From: an uncultured Verrucomicrobia subdivision 3 bacterium
Lineage (GTDB): Bacteria > Verrucomicrobiota > Verrucomicrobiia > Limisphaerales > UBA11358
Direction of reading: 5' to 3'
Length of the DNA stretch: 64,000 nucleotides
NCBI GenBank assembly: GCA_903872345.1
Contig: CAIQKM010000159.1
Location: 1 to 64,000, forward strand
Shown here: piece by piece, positions 53,381-64,000 of the stretch
How positions within the stretch are numbered: the first letter of the stretch is position 1
How the letters are laid out: each line of letters starts with the position of its first letter
The notes under the pieces: generated by a model
Seen by the model: the letters and a program-made list of their open reading frames with translations, nothing else
What the model was told of the DNA's origin: nothing
Databases searched by the model: none
Translations under genes and position numbers: made by a program

Positions 53381-53719
53381 CAATTCTTGCGCCGGAGGTG
53401 GAATTAAAAGCGGTGTGTATGCAAGTGACAGGGCGCCTTTGATCGGCAGTGGGACAGTATTTTTTGGTTTTTGCAGGAGGCGGGCAGCAAAAAAAGCTTT
53501 AGAAAGGGCGGATTTGGGTTGCTCCAAACATTAATGGAATTAACCAACTGATCCTTCCAATATCAGTTTAATAAGGACTTCCGGGTGGTTTTAAGGGTGA
53601 TTTATCAAGATATGCCAAGTCTTGAACAAGATCGGGTTAGTCGAAACCGGCGGGTCGGCAAGAATGAGGTTGAACAGGGCGCAGAGGCGCCAACAACAAA
53701 ATAACCAATGGATCAGACG
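53381..53719. other. Upstream region of the cytochrome cluster
   Basis: The 339 nt have no supported gene. The likely promoter of the cytochrome cluster lies in the AT-rich part 53525-53630, but no clear box was assigned. Confidence 0.45.
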
Positions 53720-54049
53720 ATGAAAAAGATACTCATTCTAGCAGCAGTGTTCGGTTTCGCGGCGGCTTACACGGCCGGTGCGGCGGAAGCCAAGGAAAAC
53801 TGGGACAATCTTTGCGCGAAGTGCCACGGGGCGGACGGCGCGGGCCAGACCAAGATGGGCGCCAAGCTCGGGTGCAAGGATTTCACCGACGCGAAAGTCC
53901 AGGCGGACATCAAGGACGACGCGGCGTTCAAGGCGTTGAAAGAAGGCCTGAAGAACGACGACGGCAAGACGCTGATGAAGCCGTTTGACGCGCTCTCCGA
54001 CGACGAGATCAAGGCGCTCGTGGCGTATGTCCACACGCTAAAGAAGTAA
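53720..54049 (+). CDS. Periplasmic monohaem cytochrome c (class I, c6-like)
   Basis: The ATG at 53720 (MKKILIL) begins a signal peptide ending GAAEA. An upstream ATG at 53708 adds only four residues. The mature protein is about 85 aa, with haem site CAKCH (residues 34-38) and a probable distal Met ligand in TLMKPF (about 85-90), followed by the usual C-terminal helix LSDDEIKALVAYVHTL. It would carry single electrons in the periplasm between the quinol-oxidising cytochromes downstream and an acceptor. It opens the eight-gene electron-transfer cluster, 110 nt before the next gene. Confidence 0.9.
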   Translation: MKKILILAAVFGFAAAYTAGAAEAKENWDNLCAKCHGADGAGQTKMGAKLGCKDFTDAKVQADIKDDAAFKALKEGLKNDDGKTLMKPFDALSDDEIKALVAYVHTLKK

Positions 54050-54159
54050 CCGTTTCGGTTGCCGGCCGGAATCAGTCCGGGCCCAATCTATCCTGGGCCG
54101 GGACGAAAGTTTCCCCACTGCCGGCCGGCAACCTTCCTTTTCCCAATTAATCCGCTGAC

Positions 54160-55620
54160 ATGAATAACGAACCTAAAAACTCCGCCCCGTCGCTCTTCCG
54201 AAACTGGATCAGTTTCGTGGGCCTGATCGTGGGCGTGGGCGCCCTCTTTTCCTTTTTGCTGCTGTTCACCCTGGACGCGCTGTCGAAATTTTCCAACCCG
54301 TATGTCAGCCTGCTGACGTACATGGGGGTGCCGGGTTTTCTGATCAGCGGCATTGCGCTCTTTCTGGGCGGGGCCTGGCTGGAACGCCGTCGCCGCACCA
54401 AGGGGGCGGGGATTTCGACGCTGCGGCTGGACTTGAACCGGCCGGGCGACCGCCGGGTGCTGATCACGTTCATTTCGGGCGGGGTGGTGTTTCTGCTGCT
54501 GTCGGCGGTGGGGTCGTACCATGCCTTTAATTTCACGGAGTCGCCGTCGTTCTGCGGCGAGGTCTGCCACAAGGTGATGAAGCCGGAGAAGGTGACGCAC
54601 GACCACGGTCCGCATGCGCGGGTGGCGTGCGTGGAATGTCACGTGGGCAAGGGTGTGTCATGGTTTGTAAAGTCGAAGATTTCGGGCTCGTACCAGTTGT
54701 ACTCGGTGGCGTTCAAAAAGTATCCCACGCCGATCGGCACGCCGATCAAGAACCTGCGTCCGTCGCGCGACACGTGCGAGGAATGCCACTGGCCGCAGCA
54801 ATTTGTGGGCAACCTGGACCGGACGTTCACCTATTACCAGAGCGATGCGACGAACACGCCGTATTCGATCCGGCTGCTGCTGAAGATTGGCGGGAGCGAT
54901 CCGACGCGCGGGCCGGTGGGCGGCATTCACTGGCACAATCTGCCGGGCAACAACGTGGAATATGTGGCGACGGACGCCGCGCGCCAGAAGATTCCCTGGG
55001 TGCGCGTGACGGACGCCACGGGCAAGGTGACGGTGTTCAAGGACAAGAATTTTACGAATGACGTGTCCCAGATGGAAATTCGCAAGATGGACTGCATGGA
55101 CTGCCACAACCGGCCGTCGCATCGCTATCTCTCGCCGGAGCGCGCGGTGAACCAGGCGATGGCGTTGAAGAAGATTGACCCGGGCATGCCGTGGATCAAG
55201 ACGAACGCGATGTATGCGCTGACCCGCACCTACACGAATGATGTGCAGGCGCAGGTGACCATCACGAATCTGCTGACGGCGCGGTACCCGAACGATCCGC
55301 GCCTGCCGGACGCGGTGGCGGCGGTGGAGCAGATTTACGCGGACAACTTCTTCCCGGAGATGAAGGCGAACTGGAGTTCGTATCCGGACAATGTGGGCCA
55401 CATGATCTGGCCGGGCTGTTTCCGCTGCCATGACGGCCAGCACAAGACCGAGGACCGCAAGCTGAGCATCAAGGCGAACGATTGCAACGCGTGCCATACC
55501 ATCCTGGCGCAGGGCGCGGGGGCGGAACTGGACAAGCTCGCGCCGGCGGGCCAGAAGTTCCTCCATCCGGGCGGCGACTACGACGGATCTTGCACTGACT
55601 GCCACAACGGCGGGCCGTAG
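54160..55620 (+). CDS. NapC/NirT-family heptahaem membrane cytochrome c (ImcH-like)
   Basis: The 486-aa protein has three membrane helices (about residues 16-40, 50-72 and 98-120) and a periplasmic multihaem domain. Haem sites in order are CGEVCH (a C-x3-C-H site), CVECH, CEECH, CMDCH, CFRCH, CNACH and CTDCH, seven in all. The first two lie in NapC/NirT-like sequence (FTESPSFCGEVCHKVMKP; HARVACVECHVGKG). Three helices, seven haems and a NapC-like start match Geobacter ImcH, which passes quinol electrons to the periplasm for high-potential extracellular acceptors. That equivalence is inferred. It is followed by a 15-bp inverted repeat and then the CbcL-like gene. Confidence 0.85.
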   Translation: MNNEPKNSAPSLFRNWISFVGLIVGVGALFSFLLLFTLDALSKFSNPYVSLLTYMGVPGFLISGIALFLGGAWLERRRRTKGAGISTLRLDLNRPGDRRVLITFISGGVVFLLLSAVGSYHAFNFTESPSFCGEVCHKVMKPEKVTHDHGPHARVACVECHVGKGVSWFVKSKISGSYQLYSVAFKKYPTPIGTPIKNLRPSRDTCEECHWPQQFVGNLDRTFTYYQSDATNTPYSIRLLLKIGGSDPTRGPVGGIHWHNLPGNNVEYVATDAARQKIPWVRVTDATGKVTVFKDKNFTNDVSQMEIRKMDCMDCHNRPSHRYLSPERAVNQAMALKKIDPGMPWIKTNAMYALTRTYTNDVQAQVTITNLLTARYPNDPRLPDAVAAVEQIYADNFFPEMKANWSSYPDNVGHMIWPGCFRCHDGQHKTEDRKLSIKANDCNACHTILAQGAGAELDKLAPAGQKFLHPGGDYDGSCTDCHNGGP

Positions 55621-55633
55621 TCAGATTCACTTC

Positions 55634-55690
55634 ACCGGTCCTTGCGCAGGCGATGCAGCTAAAAATGCCAAGCAATGCGCAAGGACCGGT
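55634..55690 (+). promoter_or_regulatory. Perfect 15-bp inverted repeat between the ImcH-like and CbcL-like genes
   Basis: accggtccttgcgca (55634-55648) and its exact complement (55676-55690) are separated by 27 nt and start 13 nt after the stop codon. There is no T-run, so this could be an mRNA stabiliser, a Rho-dependent or attenuating hairpin, or an operator. Confidence 0.65.
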
Positions 55691-55727
55691 AAGCAGCTTT
55701 CCCGGTTTCCCCCGATTGTGTGGGTGT

Positions 55728-57881
55728 ATGAGTTCCACTTACCAATCAAACAGACTGTCAGTTTTCCTGCTAATTTTGTCGGCAGTGCTTATCGGAAGCG
55801 TGCCGACGGCTTCGGCGGCTTCCCCGGCGACCAATGCGGCGCCCAAATTTGCCAGTTCGGATTGTCTCGATTGCCATACCGATCCGGCCAACAAGCGGAT
55901 GGTGAACGGCCATTCGGCCCCGCTGGCGCTGTTTCCCACGAACGGTTTTGCGGCGTCGGTGCATAGCGCGCTGGATTGCGTGGACTGCCATGACGGGATC
56001 AAGGAGCTGGTGCATGCCAAGATTCCGGCGCCGAACTGCGGCGGGTGCCATGACAAGGAACAGAAGCTTTACGAGACGAGCATCCACGGGATGAGCCATT
56101 CGATGGGGGCCTCGGGCGCGGCGCAATGCTGGGACTGCCACGGTTCGCACGAAATTCTGCCGGTGAAGAATACCGAGAGCCCGGTGTACAAGCTGAACCT
56201 GCCGGCCACGTGCGCGAAATGCCACAGCAACACGAATCTTACCAAGGAATACCAGATTGAATTTCCGGAGGCGGCGTCGCAGTACATGGACAGCATCCAC
56301 GGGCGGGCGCTGCTGAAGATGGGTTTGATCGTGGCGCCGTCGTGCAACGACTGCCATGGTTCGCATGCGATCAAACGCAATGTGGACCGGGATTCGCCCA
56401 TTAACCATATCAACGTGGCCAAGACCTGTGGGAAGTGCCATGTGAAGGTGGAGGGCATCTATAATAAGAGCGTGCACGGGCAGTTGCTGGTGAAGGGCGA
56501 CGGCCGGGGGCCGGTCTGCACGGACTGCCACAGCTCGCATCAGATCGAGCCGCCGAACAGCGGCCATTTCAAACAGCTTAGCGACGAGCGCTGCGGCAAG
56601 TGCCATCAGGACCGGCTGGAACATTACCGGGAGACGTATCACGGGAAGTCGATGGCGCTGGGCAAGCCGAATGTGGCGTCGGAAGTGGCGGCCTGTTATG
56701 ACTGCCACGGTTACCATGATGTGCTGCCGCCTTCCAATCCGGCCTCGCATCTTTCGGCCACGAACATTTTGGCGACGTGCCAGAAGTGTCATCCGGGCGC
56801 GACGGCGAAGTTCACGCAATTTCAGCCGCATGCGAATCCGATGGACCAGGTGCATTATCCGCTGCTGCACGTGGTGTTCCTGGCGATGACGGGCCTGTTG
56901 ATCGGCACGTTCAGCTTCTTCGGCCTGCACACGCTGTCGTGGCTGTTCCGCGCGGTGTACCTGTATATGCGGGACTCGAAGACGTTCCGCGAGGCGAAAT
57001 TCAAAACCCAGGACGATGACGAATGGTTCACGCGCTTTGTGCCGTTCGAACGGTTCCTGCATTTCCTGGTGGTGTCGAGCTTCCTGCTGCTGGTGGTCAC
57101 GGGCATGCCGCTGAAGTTCTATTACACGGACTGGGCGAAGGTGATCTTTGCGATCATTGGCGGACCGGAAACGGCGCGCATCCTGCACCGGTTTGGCGCG
57201 GTGATCACGTTCTTCTACTTCACGCTGCACCTGGTGTCGCTGACCGCCAAGGCGTGGCGCGGGCGCAAGAAACTGCACGGGGCGGATGGCAAGTTCACCT
57301 TCAAACAACTGTGGGCGGTGCTGTTCGGTCCGGACTCGATGTTCCCGAACTGGCAGGATTTGCGCGACCTGGTGGACCACAACAAATGGTTCTTCGGCAA
57401 GGGCCCGAAGCCGCAGTTTGACCGCTGGACGTATTGGGAGAAGTTCGATTACTTCGCGGTGTTCTGGGGCGTGGCGATCATCGGCATCTCGGGGCTGATC
57501 ATGTGGTTCCCGGAATTCTTCACGCGCTTCCTGCCGGGCTGGGCGATCAACATCGCGCTCATCCTGCATTCGGACGAGGCGCTGCTGGCGGCGGGATTCA
57601 TCTTCTCGATCCACTTTTTCAACACGCATTTCCGGATTGAGAAATTCCCGATGGACACGGTGATCTTCTCCGGCCGCGTCTCGAAAACGGAAATGTTGTA
57701 CGAGCGGAAACGCTGGTACGACCGCCTGGTGAAGGAGGGCCGTTTGGATGAGCACCGCGTGCGGGATGAATGGTTCCGCTGGAAAAACATTGCGCGGACG
57801 TTCGGCTACGTCGCCTTCGGCCTGGGCCTGGTGCTGCTGGGGCTGATCATCTATGCGATGACCTCGCGGCTGGGGCACTGA
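55728..57881 (+). CDS. Fusion of an 11-haem cytochrome c with a membrane cytochrome b (CbcL-like)
   Basis: A signal/anchor sequence is followed by eleven C-x-x-C-H sites (CLDCH, CVDCH, CGGCH, CWDCH, CAKCH, CNDCH, CGKCH, CTDCH, CGKCH, CYDCH, CQKCH; residues about 45-370). The C-terminal third has four to five helices with histidines placed as in HydC/FdnI diheme cytochromes b (FERFLHFLVV; RILHRFGAV and FTLHLVSL; IHFFNTHF). This architecture is that of Geobacter CbcL, a quinol oxidase for low-potential acceptors, with more c-haems than I recall for CbcL. The ATG at 55728 is preferred; the 55653 extension has no signal character. Confidence 0.85.
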   Translation: MSSTYQSNRLSVFLLILSAVLIGSVPTASAASPATNAAPKFASSDCLDCHTDPANKRMVNGHSAPLALFPTNGFAASVHSALDCVDCHDGIKELVHAKIPAPNCGGCHDKEQKLYETSIHGMSHSMGASGAAQCWDCHGSHEILPVKNTESPVYKLNLPATCAKCHSNTNLTKEYQIEFPEAASQYMDSIHGRALLKMGLIVAPSCNDCHGSHAIKRNVDRDSPINHINVAKTCGKCHVKVEGIYNKSVHGQLLVKGDGRGPVCTDCHSSHQIEPPNSGHFKQLSDERCGKCHQDRLEHYRETYHGKSMALGKPNVASEVAACYDCHGYHDVLPPSNPASHLSATNILATCQKCHPGATAKFTQFQPHANPMDQVHYPLLHVVFLAMTGLLIGTFSFFGLHTLSWLFRAVYLYMRDSKTFREAKFKTQDDDEWFTRFVPFERFLHFLVVSSFLLLVVTGMPLKFYYTDWAKVIFAIIGGPETARILHRFGAVITFFYFTLHLVSLTAKAWRGRKKLHGADGKFTFKQLWAVLFGPDSMFPNWQDLRDLVDHNKWFFGKGPKPQFDRWTYWEKFDYFAVFWGVAIIGISGLIMWFPEFFTRFLPGWAINIALILHSDEALLAAGFIFSIHFFNTHFRIEKFPMDTVIFSGRVSKTEMLYERKRWYDRLVKEGRLDEHRVRDEWFRWKNIARTFGYVAFGLGLVLLGLIIYAMTSRLGH

Positions 57882-58335
57882 GCGGTTTACCACAGCTATT
57901 CAAATGCGCAACGAAGCGATGAGGGAGAATCGAGGGTGGAAGGGGCATAGCCTGACGCTGATGCCAGTGGCTGAAGATATGAGCGCCACCTCACCCCGGC
58001 CCTCTCCCCCATTTATCAATGGCGGAGAGGGGGAAAAACCCGCCGTGCGATCACGCGGCGGCGGGCGGGCGGCGTTGGTGCCTTACGGGGCGGCGGCAAC
58101 TCGTGGCCGGGTAAACATCGGACTTTTCGCAGGCCGGCAACCGGCGGTTGAGATATGCACCAAAATTGGCGGAAATTGGCCGGATGTGGCGGGCGAAGCT
58201 GCAATAATTGTTAAGCCTTCCGCAAGGAATGGTGAGCAGGGTGGGGTGGGTAAATTTAGTCTACTCATGTCGAAAGTCCCACATCATTAGAAATTGTAGA
58301 TGTGGTTGCAAAATCAGGTTGGCCTTGGAATTGTT
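57882..58335. other. Intergenic region with a hairpin repeat, upstream of hemA
   Basis: The 454 nt hold no supported gene. The hairpin repeat at 57989-58036 lies inside. An AT-rich stretch just before hemA (58200-58335) may hold its promoter. Confidence 0.5.
57989..58036. repeat. CCTCACCCCGGCCCTCTCCCCC hairpin repeat, second copy
   Basis: The stem ccctctcc (58000-58007) pairs with ggagaggg (58024-58031). The unit matches 20193-20236 apart from the loop (atttatcaatggc). Confidence 0.7.
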
Positions 58336-59430
58336 ATGAAATTATTTGTTGCAGGACTGAGTTACAAGACGGCGCCGGTGGAATTGCGGGAGAAGCTGGC
58401 GGTGCACCGGTCACGGCTCCAATGCAGCGGCTGCCGCCTGAAATTGCGCGGCGGGCTTTCCGAGGTGGTGCTGCTTTCCACCTGCAACCGGGTGGAAATC
58501 TACGGCGTGACGGAACGCAGCAGCGCCAGCATTCCCCGGCTCTTTCAGGAACTGGCCGAAGACACGGGCCTGGATTTCACCCCCTACCTCTACGTGCACG
58601 AAGGGCTGGATGCGGCGAAGCACCTTTTCTCGGTGGCCAGCGGGCTGGACTCGCTGGTGATCGGCGAAACCGAAATTACGGGCCAGGTCAAGCACGCCTA
58701 TCAATCCGCCCAGGCGGCGAAGCTCACAGGCAAGCGGCTGAACCGGGCGTTCCAATCGGCGTTGCAGGTGGCCAAGCTGGTGCGCACGGAAACGGGCATC
58801 GGCCGCGGCGCGACCTCGGTGGGCAGCGTGGCCGTGGAACTGGCCGAAAAAGTTTTTGACGCCGACCTGAGCGAAAAGACGGTGATGATCATTGGCGCGG
58901 GCAAGATGGGCGAGGCCTGCGTGAAGCATCTGGCCAAGCGCGGCGCGAAGTCGGTGCTGGTTTCCAACCGTTCGCTGGAACGGGCGGAGAAGCTGGCGGC
59001 GGAATTTGGCGGCCGGGCGGTGGGGATGGGCGAATCCCGCCGGGCTTTGATTGCGGCGGACATCGTGGTGACCTCCACCAGTTCGCCGGACTATGTGCTG
59101 AAATCGGCGGACATCGCCGACATCCTGCCGGAGCGCGGGAACCGCCCGCTGATCCTGGTGGACATTGCGGTGCCGCGCGACGTGGATCCCGCGATTCAGC
59201 AACTCCCCAACGTTTTCCTCTACGACATTGACGATCTCGAAGCGATTGTGCGCGAGAACACCAAGCATCGCGAGCATGAGCTGGCCCGCTGCCAGGCGAT
59301 CATCGCCGGGCGCGCGGCGGAACTGCTCGCGAAAATCACCGCGGCCCCGGGCCGGCTGCCCGCGCCGCCGATCCCGGCCATGCCGGGCTGGCTGCAGCCG
59401 GAGCCCGCCGGGATGCTGGCGGCGGCGTAA
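58336..59430 (+). CDS. hemA: Glutamyl-tRNA reductase
   Basis: This is the first enzyme of C5 haem biosynthesis, reducing glutamyl-tRNA to glutamate-1-semialdehyde with NADPH. The ATG at 58336 gives MKLFVAGLSYKTAPVELRE. The catalytic Cys lies in LSTCNRVEIYG (about residues 46-56). GETEITGQVK and the Rossmann motif MIIGAGKMGEACVKHL (about 181-196) follow. The product is 364 aa. The C-terminal dimerisation domain is almost absent (the protein ends soon after EHELARCQAIIAG with a Pro-rich tail), where many homologues reach about 420 aa. Its place in the cytochrome cluster suggests coupling of haem supply to multihaem cytochrome production. Confidence 0.93.
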   Translation: MKLFVAGLSYKTAPVELREKLAVHRSRLQCSGCRLKLRGGLSEVVLLSTCNRVEIYGVTERSSASIPRLFQELAEDTGLDFTPYLYVHEGLDAAKHLFSVASGLDSLVIGETEITGQVKHAYQSAQAAKLTGKRLNRAFQSALQVAKLVRTETGIGRGATSVGSVAVELAEKVFDADLSEKTVMIIGAGKMGEACVKHLAKRGAKSVLVSNRSLERAEKLAAEFGGRAVGMGESRRALIAADIVVTSTSSPDYVLKSADIADILPERGNRPLILVDIAVPRDVDPAIQQLPNVFLYDIDDLEAIVRENTKHREHELARCQAIIAGRAAELLAKITAAPGRLPAPPIPAMPGWLQPEPAGMLAAA

Positions 59431-59574
59431 CGAGGATTTGCCACCATGCAAAACACACTTTCAACGAAAAATCGGGCCATGATCTCATTGCGCGATGTTT
59501 CGCTGGAATGGTCCGGCATCGGCCGGTGCCGGATACATATCAAAAAACAAACCAAGCACGTGCAGTAAACTAAT

Positions 59575-60294
59575 ATGAAAAAAATAACAACAGTCCTGGC
59601 CTTGGGGGCCGTGATGGCCTTTGTGTCATCCACCAGCAAGGCAAGCATCGTGGGCAGTGGCCACGATTTCACCTCCACCGGCGGCTACAGCGCCGTCACC
59701 AACCTCGGCGTCGCCACCTTCACCTGGGGCGGCGAAACCAACAAGTATCAAAACCCCTGCCAAGTGTGCCATATTCCGCACAAAGCGCAGGATCCCACGG
59801 TCTCCCACGCTCCGTTGTGGAACCACGCCCTTTCCGGCAACACCTATCTGACGTACGACAAGGCGGGCAGCGCCACGTTTAACGCCCTCGGTCTGTCGGT
59901 CTCGCTGGGTTCCTCCGTGGCCTGCTTGAGCTGCCATGACGGCTCGGTGGCCATCAATGAAACGGCCGGTTACACCGGCAAGGGTGCGACCAATGGCAAT
60001 GCCGGCGCGGCGGTGTTTGCGCCCAGCTTCGCGGTGGAAGCCATCGGTGGTACGGACCTGACCAAGATGCACCCAATCGGTGTGAGCTACACGGCGGCCG
60101 CTTCGGCTGATCCCGACCTGCAACCGGTCAGCGGCACGCTGATGCCGCGCATGTTGCAAGGCGCCACCAAGACGGTGGAATGCGCCTCCTGCCATGACAT
60201 TCACCGCACGATCGGTGCGTCCGCCACGGTCAGCCATGAGCTGATTGTGGATTTGAACGGCGGCCAGCTCTGCCTGACCTGCCATAACAAGTAA
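59575..60294 (+). CDS. Secreted tetrahaem cytochrome c
   Basis: A signal peptide (MKKITTVLALG... to SKAS) is followed by 215 residues with four C-x-x-C-H sites: CQVCH (with PCQVCHIPHKAQ), CLSCH (VACLSCHDGSVA), CASCH (CASCHDIHR) and CLTCH at the very end. The spacing and C-x-x-C-H-x-P/D-x-H contexts resemble doubled-CxxCH domain cytochromes. It probably shuttles electrons across the periplasm, or serves outside the cell. It starts 144 nt after hemA and is followed by a strong terminator, so the first part of the cluster may end here. Confidence 0.86.
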   Translation: MKKITTVLALGAVMAFVSSTSKASIVGSGHDFTSTGGYSAVTNLGVATFTWGGETNKYQNPCQVCHIPHKAQDPTVSHAPLWNHALSGNTYLTYDKAGSATFNALGLSVSLGSSVACLSCHDGSVAINETAGYTGKGATNGNAGAAVFAPSFAVEAIGGTDLTKMHPIGVSYTAAASADPDLQPVSGTLMPRMLQGATKTVECASCHDIHRTIGASATVSHELIVDLNGGQLCLTCHNK

Positions 60295-60316
60295 GCGTAA
60301 TCCGGCCTTGACGGCC

Positions 60317-60352
60317 AGCGAGGCTCCGGATTTCGGAGCCTCGCTTTTTTTT
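60317..60352 (+). terminator. Strong intrinsic terminator after the tetrahaem cytochrome
   Basis: A perfect 12-bp stem (agcgaggctccg/cggagcctcgct) with a 5-nt loop is followed by seven T. It separates the downstream lipoprotein/porin genes into their own transcript. Confidence 0.93.
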
Positions 60353-60518
60353 AAGCAGCGGGGGCGGTTATTCGGGTGATGGGGCGGATAAGCTAAAAAA
60401 TGCGAACACTAGGACAAAATACGTGTAGTTGGGCCAGGTGGTTTGGCGCAGACTGATGGCATGATTCACGGTGGCAACACCAAATAAACATACTCAAGAC
60501 AATCTTTTTTACCGACTT

Positions 60519-61610
60519 ATGAAAAACACCCCTCTCCTCCGAACGTTTTGCACCGTCTTGCTGACGGGCGCCGTCCTCGCCCTGGCGGCGGGGTGCGCGA
60601 GTTCGTCCAAAACCGCCAAAACCGCCTACTACTTCTTTCCCGCACCGCCGGATGAGCCGCATTTCCAGTATTTGACCTCCTTCAGTTCGGAGACGGATTT
60701 GAATGGCGCCGCGAACCGGTCGTTCGTGAGCTACCTGACGGGCGCGCAGACGCTGCGGCGGGAACTGGCCAAGCCTTATGGCATTGCGTCCCATGGCCAC
60801 ACGCTTTACATCTGCGACACGGAATTGGGTTCGGTGGTGCTGGTGGACATGCCGACCAAGCGGATGCGGGTGATGGCCGCCCAAGGCGAGGGGGCTTTGA
60901 AAATGCCGCTGAACCTGACGCTGGACACGGATGGCAACGCCTACGTGGCGGATTCGCTGCGCGACCAGGTGGTGATCTTTGACCGGTCGGAGAATTTTAC
61001 CGCTTCGCTGGGCAAGCTGGATGAAATGAAGCCGCGCGACGTGGCGGTGAGCGCGGATCGGATTTATGTGGCGGATTTGAAGGGGCATTGCGTGCGGGTA
61101 TTTGACAAAGTCACGCGCGCGCCCCTGTTCAGCATTCCGCGCGGCGACGACGCCAAGCAGCACTCGCGCCAAATTTTTACCCCCACGAACCTGGGTTTGG
61201 ATTCCAAGGGCCGGCTGTATGTGGGCGACACGGGGGCGTTTCGTGTGCAGGTTTATGATGCCGACGGCAAGTATCTGCGGTCGGTGGGCAGTTTCGGCGA
61301 CGGGCCGGGACAGTTTGCCCGGCTGAAGGGCATCGCCCTGGACCGGGAGGATCGTTTGTACACGGTGGACGCGATGTCGCAGGTGATCCAGGTATTTGAC
61401 GACCAGGGGCGGTTGCTGACGTGGTTTGCCGATCCGACCGCAGGCAAGGCTACCCAGAACCTGCCGGCCAAAGTCATGGTGGATTATGACGACGTGAGCG
61501 CTTTCGCGAGTTATGCCGCGCCCGGTTTCAAGATCGAGTACCTGGTGTTTGTCGTGAACCAACTGGGCCCGCACAAGGTGGGGGTCTATGGGTACGGCAG
61601 CAAAAAATAA
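60519..61610 (+). CDS. NHL/six-bladed beta-propeller lipoprotein
   Basis: The start at 60519 (MKNTPLLRTF) yields a signal peptide with lipobox LAAGC (Cys about residue 24). The body has NHL-like propeller repeats (PYGIASHGHTLYICDTELGSVVLVDM; LTLDTDGNAYVADSLRDQVVIFD; LGLDSKGRLYVGDTGAFRVQVYD; IALDREDRLYTVDAMSQVIQVFD). No haem site is present. NHL proteins are often found beside multihaem cytochrome and porin genes and may scaffold them. It lies 27 nt upstream of the 13-haem lipoprotein gene, so one transcript is likely. Confidence 0.85.
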   Translation: MKNTPLLRTFCTVLLTGAVLALAAGCASSSKTAKTAYYFFPAPPDEPHFQYLTSFSSETDLNGAANRSFVSYLTGAQTLRRELAKPYGIASHGHTLYICDTELGSVVLVDMPTKRMRVMAAQGEGALKMPLNLTLDTDGNAYVADSLRDQVVIFDRSENFTASLGKLDEMKPRDVAVSADRIYVADLKGHCVRVFDKVTRAPLFSIPRGDDAKQHSRQIFTPTNLGLDSKGRLYVGDTGAFRVQVYDADGKYLRSVGSFGDGPGQFARLKGIALDREDRLYTVDAMSQVIQVFDDQGRLLTWFADPTAGKATQNLPAKVMVDYDDVSAFASYAAPGFKIEYLVFVVNQLGPHKVGVYGYGSKK

Positions 61611-61637
61611 CCACCAACGGCTGCCACCACCAATATC

Positions 61638-62789
61638 ATGAAGCTAGACCGGCCTTATCAATGGTTCCTTGTTGCCGTCGCCGCCGCCGTGGTGTTGACG
61701 AGCGGTTGCAGCCAGGTAACCAAACGGAAGTGGCTGGTTTTTTTCTTCGATGGTGTGCCGGCGGAGGTGTCGGCCACCAACCGGGTGGCGACGGCGAACG
61801 CAGCGGGCAAAGGCGGGGCGGCCCCGGCGGCCCCGGCTCCCCAGCCGGTGCGGCCGAAGCCGCCGGAACCCAAACTGCATCCGCCCTACGCGGCCAACCA
61901 ATGCACCCGGTGCCATGAATCCACGTTTGCCATGCAATTGGTGAAGCCGGCACCCGGGCTGTGCTTCGATTGCCACAAGGATTTTTTGACGGGCCGCAAG
62001 GCGCAGCATCAGCCGGTGGCGAGCGGAGAATGCATGAGCTGTCATGATCCGCATCAGTCCACCAACCCCAAACTGCTGCTGAAAACCGGCACGGCGTTAT
62101 GCCTGACCTGCCATGACAATCCGCTGGAGGCGGGAAAATTTACCCACCAGGCGGTGGAAGCGGGCGAGTGCCTGGACTGCCATTCGCCGCACGCGACGAA
62201 TTTCAAGGGCTTGCTGATCAAATCGGTCAAGGACACCTGCGCCGACTGCCATGCCGACCTGACGGCCAAGAAAAAAGTAGTGCATCAGCCGGTGGGTGAT
62301 GGCGACTGCCTGGAATGCCATACGCCGCACGCCGGGAAGATCAAAGGTCTGTTGAAAAAGCCGGTGAAGGCCACCTGCGCGGACTGCCATGACGACATTC
62401 CGGGCAAGGGCATGAAGTCGGTGCACCAGCCGGTGGACGACGGCGACTGCCTGGCGTGTCACAATCCCCATGCGACGAACACCAAGGGGCTGGTCAAAAA
62501 GACCGCGCCGGCCCTGTGCTGGGATTGCCACGACAATTTTCTGGAGAAGGCAAAATTCAAACATGACGTGGTGGAAGATTGCACCTCGTGCCACAACCCG
62601 CACCAGGCGAAAGAAGCTGCACTGCTGCTGAAAAACGTGGTGAAACTCTGCGGCGACTGCCATGACGACAAGGACTTGCAAGCGGTGAAAGGCCACGCGG
62701 GCGCGGCGGGCAAGAGCTGCACCGTCTGTCACGATCCGCATGTTGGCACGGACAAGAACCTGCTAAAGCCGGCCGCCCGGCCCAAATAA
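61638..62789 (+). CDS. 13-haem lipoprotein cytochrome c (MtrA/DmsE-like repeats)
   Basis: Lipobox LTSGC (Cys about residue 24) ends the signal peptide. An Ala/Pro-rich linker (about 48-80) leads to a chain of thirteen C-x-x-C-H sites over 290 residues: CTRCH, CFDCH, CMSCH, CLTCH, CLDCH, CADCH, CLECH, CADCH, CLACH, CWDCH, CTSCH, CGDCH, CTVCH. They form paired units (GECxxCHxPHAT, then xxxCxxCHD) with a conserved His in H-Q-P-V before each pair, as in MtrA/DmsE decahaem wires that sit inside an outer-membrane barrel. The barrel gene follows after 4 nt. It could lie on either face of the outer membrane. Confidence 0.88.
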   Translation: MKLDRPYQWFLVAVAAAVVLTSGCSQVTKRKWLVFFFDGVPAEVSATNRVATANAAGKGGAAPAAPAPQPVRPKPPEPKLHPPYAANQCTRCHESTFAMQLVKPAPGLCFDCHKDFLTGRKAQHQPVASGECMSCHDPHQSTNPKLLLKTGTALCLTCHDNPLEAGKFTHQAVEAGECLDCHSPHATNFKGLLIKSVKDTCADCHADLTAKKKVVHQPVGDGDCLECHTPHAGKIKGLLKKPVKATCADCHDDIPGKGMKSVHQPVDDGDCLACHNPHATNTKGLVKKTAPALCWDCHDNFLEKAKFKHDVVEDCTSCHNPHQAKEAALLLKNVVKLCGDCHDDKDLQAVKGHAGAAGKSCTVCHDPHVGTDKNLLKPAARPK

Positions 62790-62793
62790 AGCC

Positions 62794-64000
62794 ATGGCAT
62801 ATCCCTTCTCCAAAAAGAATTTCCGGCTGCCGCTGGCCCTGGCCACGGCGGCGATGGCGGCCCAGGCGACGCGGTCGGTCGCGCAGACGGTTTATGCCGA
62901 CCAATTGGAAGTGCCGGACCTGACCCTGCCGCAGGTGCGGTATCTTAAGATGGATCTGGAGGACGAGCAGGACAAATACACGTCCAAGCAGGCCAATACC
63001 GCGTCGCTGAACAATTCGCGGCTGTATCTGGCGCCGGGGGTGGGCATTGGCTGGGACTATTTTCTCTACCATCCGGATTTGCTGGCCTTTTCGCTGCTGG
63101 CCGAGCCGGGTTATAATTTGCAGCAGTACAGTGGGAATGGAACATCCAGCAGCAACGATGCGCTGCTCTTGAACGGCACGCTGACCGGGCAGTTGCTCCG
63201 GGAAAAAGACTACGCGACCACGCTGAACTACACCCGCACGCACGACGACTACCACTACGATTATTTCAATTCCGCCACGGTGGACACGCAGGGCTGGGGG
63301 GCATCCTCGGGCTACCGGACGGGGCCGGTGCCGGTGAGTGTGTCGGTTTCCCAGACGCATACGGATACGCAAGGCGCCACACAGGATACGGTGATGGATC
63401 AGACCACGGTGAATTTGCACGCGCGGAATGAGCGGAAAGACCTGGATGCCACCGACCTGAACTACCAGTTCAGCCAGTTGAATTACAACACGGCGTACCA
63501 GCTTTCCAGTTACGCCAACGACAATACCTACAACCGGGTGGCGTTGACGGATGCGGAGCATTTTCAGAAAAGCACGCTGACTTCGACGCTGCTCTATTAC
63601 AATATCAACTCGACGGAACAGGATTCCTCCGATTTGAACCTGGGGCTGGACTACCATCGCGTTCTCACGTCAACGCTGAGCGCTTTTGGCAATTACAGTT
63701 TGTCGGACTACTCCGCCACCGGCCTGGACTCGCTCCAGAATTTCGGGACGGCGGGGCTTTCGCACCAGCTATATGAGAGTTTGAGTTCGAGCGTAAATGT
63801 TCATGCTTCCACCCTGAACACCACCGGCATTACCGGCAACCAGGATTCAACGACCATCGGGGCCGGCTATGGGGAAAGTTACACGAAACGGCTGGGCGAG
63901 GGCATGCGGCTGTCGCTTGGCAACGACCTGAATTATGACCTGGTGAACCAGTCGGTTTCCGGGTCGGAAATCTACATTGCCAACGAGGGGTACACGGTGC
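62794..64000 (+). CDS. Outer-membrane beta-barrel protein (MtrB/porin-like), 3' end beyond the window
   Basis: An open frame from ATG 62794 runs to the window edge (at least 402 codons) with no stop. It starts MAYPFSKKN, followed by a signal-like segment (LPLALATAAMAAQATRSVAQ). The rest has alternating hydrophobic and polar residues and many aromatic-rich strands (LAPGVGIGWDYFLYHP; TTLNYTRTHDDYHYDYF; YNLQQYSG), consistent with a large barrel, and no C-x-x-C motif. The 4-nt spacing from the 13-haem lipoprotein gene suggests the barrel that houses it, as MtrB does for MtrA. Membership of a named family cannot be confirmed from a partial sequence. Confidence 0.75.
   Translation, partial: MAYPFSKKNFRLPLALATAAMAAQATRSVAQTVYADQLEVPDLTLPQVRYLKMDLEDEQDKYTSKQANTASLNNSRLYLAPGVGIGWDYFLYHPDLLAFSLLAEPGYNLQQYSGNGTSSSNDALLLNGTLTGQLLREKDYATTLNYTRTHDDYHYDYFNSATVDTQGWGASSGYRTGPVPVSVSVSQTHTDTQGATQDTVMDQTTVNLHARNERKDLDATDLNYQFSQLNYNTAYQLSSYANDNTYNRVALTDAEHFQKSTLTSTLLYYNINSTEQDSSDLNLGLDYHRVLTSTLSAFGNYSLSDYSATGLDSLQNFGTAGLSHQLYESLSSSVNVHASTLNTTGITGNQDSTTIGAGYGESYTKRLGEGMRLSLGNDLNYDLVNQSVSGSEIYIANEGYTV

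Follow-up and report, generated by a model that had tools for sequence, protein, structure and literature searches.

A multihaem cytochrome cluster in a Verrucomicrobia subdivision 3 genome with a probable outward electron conduit and an OmcE-type tetrahaem protein

The stretch of DNA analyzed here (hereafter the window) extends over bases 1-64000 of contig C159, a 114730-base piece of the draft genome (6.5 Mb, 94.6% complete) of an uncultured Verrucomicrobia subdivision 3 bacterium. Its right end carries a cluster of multihaem cytochrome genes, which probably serves to lead respiratory electrons to the outside and in which a large outer-membrane barrel is encoded close to a relative of the filament cytochrome OmcE. 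The full cluster contains ten genes and 48 haem sites, and two of the genes are located beyond the window on the same contig:

53708-54049, + strand, monohaem cytochrome c (PF00034, 2.5e-11; one CXXCH)
54160-55620, + strand, ImcH-like heptahaem quinol oxidase (PF03264, 1.9e-12; three transmembrane helices; six CXXCH and one CX3CH)
55653-57881, + strand, CbcL-like fusion of 11 c-haems and a C-terminal cytochrome b domain (11 CXXCH)
58300-59430, + strand, hemA, glutamyl-tRNA reductase (Pfam, 9e-47)
59575-60294, + strand, OmcE-type tetrahaem secreted cytochrome, candidate filament subunit (9yuq, 1.8e-17)
60471-61610, + strand, NHL propeller lipoprotein 1, NHL1 (PF01436, 1.8e-17; lipobox LAAGC read from the sequence)
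61638-62789, + strand, 13-haem MtrA/DmsE-like lipoprotein (6r2q_A, 5.3e-14; lipobox LTSGC read from the sequence)
62794-64815, + strand, outer-membrane beta-barrel, 673 amino acids (28 or 29 long strands predicted; the window ends at 64000)
64818-65840, NHL lipoprotein 2, NHL2 (outside the window)
65837-67615, 12-haem cytochrome, composed of an OmcE-like N-domain (residues 33-226) and an 8-haem part (outside the window)

The eight genes of the window had been proposed by a first-pass annotation of the letters, and all of them were recovered on the + strand in the same order and places, together with the 36 haem sites counted there (1+7+11+4+13). Pfam searches agreed with that annotation for each gene except the barrel, which was without a match. 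The suggestion of a Verrucomicrobiota-like genome was also borne out, since most of the relatives with the most similar barrels bear the name Verrucomicrobia, including several from subdivision 3 or Limisphaerales. When the contig was followed past 64000, where an extracellular multihaem cytochrome had been expected, a gene of this kind was found (the 12-haem gene). In a chance control, four open frames of at least 100 amino acids with at least four CXXCH (maximum 13) were present in the window, whereas none of 20 triplet shuffles contained any such frame and the maximum was one CXXCH per open frame. The gaps from the 13-haem gene to the barrel, NHL2 and 12-haem genes were 4, 2 and -4 bases, respectively. 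Genome-wide, 12 matches to the doubled-CXXCH family PF09699 were identified, 11 inside the cluster and the twelfth on contig C119.

The central member of the cluster is the tetrahaem protein. Its sequence alone matched only 9yuq in PDB at an E-value of 0.01 or better, whereas a profile of 31 tetrahaem relatives matched both 9yuq (9.8e-26) and 7tfs (4.5e-16, positions 9-249 of 249), the OmcE of the Geobacter sulfurreducens filament (PMC12954529). The four CX2CH motifs and the distal histidines 30, 69, 166 and 210 were kept in all 37 tetrahaem rows, which, like the 12-haem rows below, had been picked by profile and haem count. Judged from its sequence, the protein is a full-length OmcE relative that shares with 7tfs the same four haems and four distal histidines. 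The first-pass annotation had read it as an ordinary periplasmic carrier; the end-to-end profile match points instead to kinship with the filament subunit OmcE. One further histidine, His84 (in LWNH; window 59824-59826), was conserved in 34 of 37 tetrahaem proteins and in 28 of 42 N-domains of the 12-haem kind.

A second OmcE-like domain heads the 12-haem cytochrome. Among the 42 rows of this type, which include one 8-haem and one 13-haem protein, the four distal histidines and three of the motifs were present in all 42 and the fourth motif in 41. In a quick tree, tetrahaem proteins and 12-haem N-domains formed two groups, save for one very long row (L031), and OmcE fell with the free-standing tetrahaem group, both with weak support; a single clade for the 12-haem N-domains was not rejected (p 0.70). 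Therefore, the two kinds seem to be older than the phyla carrying them. A search with a 12-haem relative from Pseudomonadota gave a family of at least 7747 members (7747 of 8000 scored candidates passed an E-value of 0.001), and no record named Tenderia or Geobacter occurred among the 120 listed of these 7747. This very large size of the 12-haem family was noted at locus L032 (10187-11944).

The 13-haem lipoprotein resembled chain A of 6r2q, which we take to be MtrA, as well as the DmsE family (7.2e-43, below the family cut-off), and is a candidate for a wire through the periplasm and the barrel. Its gene directly adjoins that of the barrel. For the barrel itself, sequence searches gave no match in Pfam at E-values up to 1, in NCBIfam up to 0.01 or in PDB up to 1, so that at the sensitivity used it does not appear to belong to the MtrB sequence family. 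The structural model contained 28 or 29 long strands and a small insert at approximately residues 400-470, and no N-terminal plug domain could be observed in the predicted secondary structure. MtrB has 26 strands, and substrate porins and TonB barrels have 16-22. In structure searches, the MtrB chain 6r2q_B ranked second in both lists, and its alignment of 451 residues was the longest among the 50 VIA rows listed. Many TonB-type and LptD barrels were listed beside it and tied with it, and thus kinship with MtrB is not established by fold; the fold search was dropped as a proof of membership. The insert (approximately residues 386-486; contig 63949-64251) was also found alone in other open frames of 286-4251 amino acids in ten genomes of the same order.

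We then examined the conservation of the cluster. A barrel-pattern scan of genome contigs yielded 33 loci and the order search added others, and 45 loci remained after duplicate removal (locus L047, which fits in part, is not among them). The order tetrahaem, NHL, n-haem, barrel, NHL and 12-haem was detected by a strict script in 27 of the 45 loci, and in 31 when the gene strings were read (L013, L020, L030 and L072 added). It spans Verrucomicrobiota, Lentisphaerota, Nitrospirota, Planctomycetota, Pseudomonadota and Sumerlaeota. For eleven of the fourteen remaining loci, the missing gene would fall within approximately 2.6 kb of a contig end. The first-pass annotation had named a loss of synteny between cytochromes and barrel in relatives as a ground for giving up its reading, and the relatives were found to retain this synteny. 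The protein before the barrel has 5 or 9 haems in Nitrospirota, Planctomycetota, Pseudomonadota, Neomarinimicrobiota, Bacteroidales and some Verrucomicrobiota loci. A second cassette class (L017, L019, L021, L022, L024, L025, L026, L028 and L059) has an extra multihaem protein of 788-1107 amino acids with 7-9 CXXCH between the tetrahaem and NHL genes.

Analysis of 293 genomes of the window's order revealed that the barrel was present in 42 and OmcE-like sequences in 43, with both in 42 and neither in 250 (Fisher p 3e-50, relatedness ignored). Here the barrel count sets aside 10 genomes with the insert only and includes one partial match at a contig end, and the OmcE-like count includes the OmcE-like domain of 12-haem proteins. 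In the exceptional genome (G206), the OmcE-like match lies at a contig end. All 48 typed barrel places had an OmcE-like domain within 10 kb.

On the inner-membrane side, the monohaem cytochrome might serve as a periplasmic shuttle. The heptahaem protein (486 amino acids) has transmembrane-like segments at 12-30, 51-69 and 100-118, a CX3CH at 132 and six CX2CH. Set beside ImcH by description, it has the published features of that protein, namely three N-terminal transmembrane helices, an adjoining CX3CH, six CX2CH and approximately 500 residues; a 2018 survey gives ImcH as known only from Fe(III)-reducing bacteria (PMC6295460). The 11-haem protein matched cytochrome b and formate dehydrogenase gamma models below the curated cut-offs, and five C-terminal hydrophobic segments exceeded the threshold used, compared with six transmembrane helices expected for the CbcL/MtrH/MtoC type. 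It fits this type, in which CbcL has nine haems and the family ranges from 3 to 23 (PMC6295460). A further candidate was found on contig C119 (L042 9277-11061, minus strand), where a 595-residue frame combines nine CXXCH with a cytochrome b domain. It shared 60-67% identity with the nine-haem genes that 13 other loci carry near the cassette, and 28% with the 11-haem protein of the window. In those 13 loci the gene is mostly located directly before hemA, whereas in the present genome it lies away from the cassette, adjoining a monohaem cytochrome much like that at 53708. Taken together with the ImcH-like protein and the 11-haem fusion, the genome therefore has at least three candidate quinol oxidases. 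In one Sumerlaeota genome (L030 5429-7528), an 11-haem protein with 37% identity to the window fusion is located inside the cassette between 5-haem and 15-haem genes.

Two GlutR_N genes were identified in the genome, one of them being the hemA of the cluster; by our reading, the second copy adjoins a frame for a cytochrome c assembly protein. Of the 27 loci that the strict script found complete, 20 had a hemA gene no more than 1.5 kb upstream of the tetrahaem gene.

The first-pass annotation held that the arrangement was, to its knowledge, without precedent among systems of the Geobacter and Shewanella type. Parts of that type (quinol oxidase, conduit cytochrome, barrel and outer cytochrome) are indeed recognizable, whereas the claim of novelty has to be narrowed, as Uet has a very similar list of outer-membrane parts and a 2017 paper had already described a porin-cytochrome cluster from Verrucomicrobia. 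Uet (undecahaem electron transfer) of Ca. Tenderia electrophaga and Gallionella is the closest described system, a likeness judged by its parts list and not by protein sequences. According to its published description, it comprises an extracellular tetrahaem protein (UetA), a beta-barrel (UetC), two NHL proteins (UetHI) and an 11-12-haem protein (UetJ), all of which have counterparts in kind here, as well as three trihaem cytochromes and a peptidyl-prolyl isomerase (PMC10734462), neither of which was recognized in the present cluster. No frame with two or three CXXCH was found in contig 50001-70000, and no peptidyl-prolyl isomerase among the ten genes by Pfam; both could lie elsewhere in the genome. 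Compared with Uet, the present cluster adds the 13-haem MtrA-like protein beside the barrel, the quinol oxidases and hemA. MtrCAB of Shewanella (6r2q) has in common with it a large barrel beside an MtrA-related multihaem protein and an outer multihaem cytochrome; here there are 13 haems instead of 10, the barrel is unrelated by sequence at the sensitivity used, and the outer cytochrome is of the OmcE/12-haem kind rather than MtrC. In comparison with OmcE of Geobacter, the tetrahaem protein is tied to a barrel cassette and has the extra conserved histidine, and an 8-haem part is joined to the second OmcE-like domain.

In freshwater Verrucomicrobia, He 2017 described a porin with periplasmic multihaem cytochromes next to it, joined in several cases by extracellular ones, and proposed humic acceptors; the 19 genomes of that study were reported to lack homologs of the Geobacter outer cytochromes (PMC5615132). 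The periplasmic cytochrome of that cluster has eight haem sites according to its description, as opposed to 13 here. OetABI of syntrophic sulfate reducers (PMC10553843) and the operon of PMC5539420 also place a barrel conduit beside putative filament cytochromes and a six-bladed propeller protein; they differ in their OmcS/OmcX-type filament genes and large cytochromes of 16 and 26 haems. Among the literature matches listed (titles and abstract openings), neither OmcE-type genes in Verrucomicrobiota nor an OmcE-fused 12-haem cytochrome were described. A review mentions OmcE homologs across bacteria and archaea, citing Baquero 2023, Gu 2023 and Portela 2024 (PMC12307469), and those from Verrucomicrobiota may already be listed in one of these. 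As far as our literature searches show, the new points are a conduit linked with a subunit of the OmcE type, a 12-haem protein carrying a fused OmcE-like domain, and the exchange of the block from the tetrahaem gene to the barrel.

On the basis of these results, the conduit appears real and looks complete, although foreshadowed in parts by Uet and the 2017 report, and we consider that the cluster probably carries respiratory electrons out of the cell through a barrel conduit and an OmcE-type filament. The ImcH-like and CbcL-like proteins would act as alternative inner-membrane quinol oxidases and hand electrons to the monohaem shuttle and the 13-haem lipoprotein, which would pass through the large barrel. 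Outside the cell, the 12-haem cytochrome would take the electrons, and the tetrahaem protein would polymerize into a filament leading to a mineral, humic or cellular acceptor. As outer-membrane lipoproteins, both NHL propellers might help to place or export the outer parts.

Several observations weigh against this proposal. The AlphaFold model of the tetrahaem protein was unusable (predicted local distance difference test, pLDDT, 38.6), and thus its fold is deduced from sequence alone. A crude lipobox scan was positive in only 26 of 43 NHL1, 21 of 37 n-haem and 18 of 41 NHL2 proteins. Three of the 45 loci (L061, L068 and L069) had no MtrA-like gene between propeller and barrel, and 13 of 96 OmcE-like places had no barrel place within 10 kb, mostly because they lie on other contigs. 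The tie of TonB-type and LptD barrels with 6r2q_B belongs here as well. Because a further CbcL-type quinol oxidase is encoded elsewhere in the genome, the cluster is not the sole entry for electrons. Finally, inward flow is possible, as the hosts of Uet take up electrons and the genome has three COX1-family (haem-copper oxidase) genes.

The alternative to be taken most seriously, although we lean against it, is that the conduit is real and the tetrahaem protein acts as single diffusible or surface-bound molecules without a filament. Filament formation has so far been inferred, and the LWNH histidine is replaced by arginine in both OmcE and 9yuq, so packing may differ. On the other hand, all eight haem ligands of OmcE are kept, the free-standing tetrahaem proteins group with OmcE in the weakly supported tree, and the entry of 9yuq, the closest solved relative, contains 16 chains. 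In OmcE and OmcS, one ligand of a haem is a histidine supplied by the neighboring subunit (PMC9473688).

With regard to direction, the same machine might run inward, supplying the quinone pool and oxygen with electrons drawn from a partner, Fe(II) or reduced humics. The named parts list closest to the present one, that of Uet, stems from a cathode oxidizer and from iron-oxidizing Gallionellaceae (PMC10734462), and quinone enzymes of the CbcL/MtoC type have been reported to work in both directions (PMC6295460). The three haem-copper oxidase genes, which by our reading of the neighboring frames belong to aa3-type, cbb3-type and alternative-complex-III clusters, point the same way. They also deprive an argument of the first-pass annotation of its weight: the absence of oxygen enzymes from the window, taken there to fit an external acceptor, is uninformative since such genes lie elsewhere in the genome. 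However, an ImcH-like protein is present and no Calvin-cycle RuBisCO was found in the genome, the one RuBisCO-like gene having its best match in OiaX, a sugar-degradation enzyme (below the cut-off for the piece scanned). For these two reasons outward flow is favored and inward operation seems unlikely. Thus, of the electron outlet proposed at first, the conduit parts stand, whereas the outward direction is likely at most. That the barrel is a chance neighbor of the cytochromes and works as a transporter unrelated to them, either TonB-type or a substrate porin, an outcome the first-pass annotation had named as fatal to its reading, is very improbable: sequence matches to porin-cytochrome barrel families are absent and the structure searches give similar scores to TonB-dependent and LptD barrels, but the model has more long strands than such transporters and no predicted plug, MtrB is among its best matches, its gene sits 4 and 2 bases from its neighbors, and every typed barrel place has an OmcE-like domain within 10 kb.

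In Geobacter, the passage of electrons between cytochrome filaments and the cell interior is described as not well understood (PMC10553843). Here an OmcE relative is encoded beside one barrel conduit, and 42 of the 43 sampled genomes with OmcE-like genes also have the barrel. The OmcE-headed 12-haem protein is a concrete candidate for the connector, within a cassette small enough to be moved into a laboratory host, which could allow tests of how conducting threads plug into the cell. In addition, OmcE-type genes are added to a phylum for which the 2017 survey had reported none.

The outer conduit parts also appear to have been swapped as one block between closely related genomes. Judged by hemA, the locus nearest to the window is L010, in a genome of the same genus (G235). 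DNA identity between it and the window was 82-96% from 53.4 to 59.4 kb, 51-62% across most of the tetrahaem, NHL1, 13-haem and barrel genes, 65-81% in the stretch that holds NHL2 and the 12-haem gene, and 86-92% beyond. Protein identities followed the same pattern, being 97% for hemA, 99% for the heptahaem and 97% for the 11-haem protein, then 47-49% (tetrahaem), 50% (NHL1), 54-55% (13-haem) and 40-42% (barrel), and finally 64% (NHL2) and 75-77% (12-haem). The trees of hemA, NHL2 and the 12-haem protein keep the window and L010 as sisters, whereas approximately unbiased (AU) tests rejected this sisterhood for the tetrahaem protein (p 5e-5), NHL1 (3e-78) and the barrel (1e-5), and not for the 13-haem protein (p 0.15). 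It should be noted that these were quick trees of 19-21 rows and that the pair was picked after the identities had been seen, which weakens the p values. For the three proteins, the tests speak against rapid evolution, and the trees suggest that the genes were exchanged between the two chromosomes. A similar contrast was observed between L009 and L022 (hemA 90%, barrel 33%; barrel sisterhood rejected); as hemA does not make these two sisters either, the window and L010 provide the one clean case. For Geobacter, a 2026 study reported elevated mutation rates as well as exchange of multihaem cytochromes, and the exchange of a barrel together with a filament gene at one site is not among the points of its abstract (PMC12977616).

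A bolder model, which we regard as tentative and rather doubtful, would make the 12-haem protein the root of the nanowire: its N-domain would join the filament by a cross-subunit histidine and its 8-haem part would dock onto the barrel, in an assembly that predates the phyla sharing it. The exposed half of this assembly (tetrahaem protein, propeller and barrel) would be swapped between strains by recombination. If so, wire and conduit would be one built-in assembly, and the swapping would resemble that of an attacked surface antigen or of a plug refitted to another acceptor.

As a minor observation, a frame of 128 amino acids before hemA (57904-58290) was not taken as a gene; it reads like a dispersed intergenic repeat (SPRPSPP...NGGEGE), presumably of that type.

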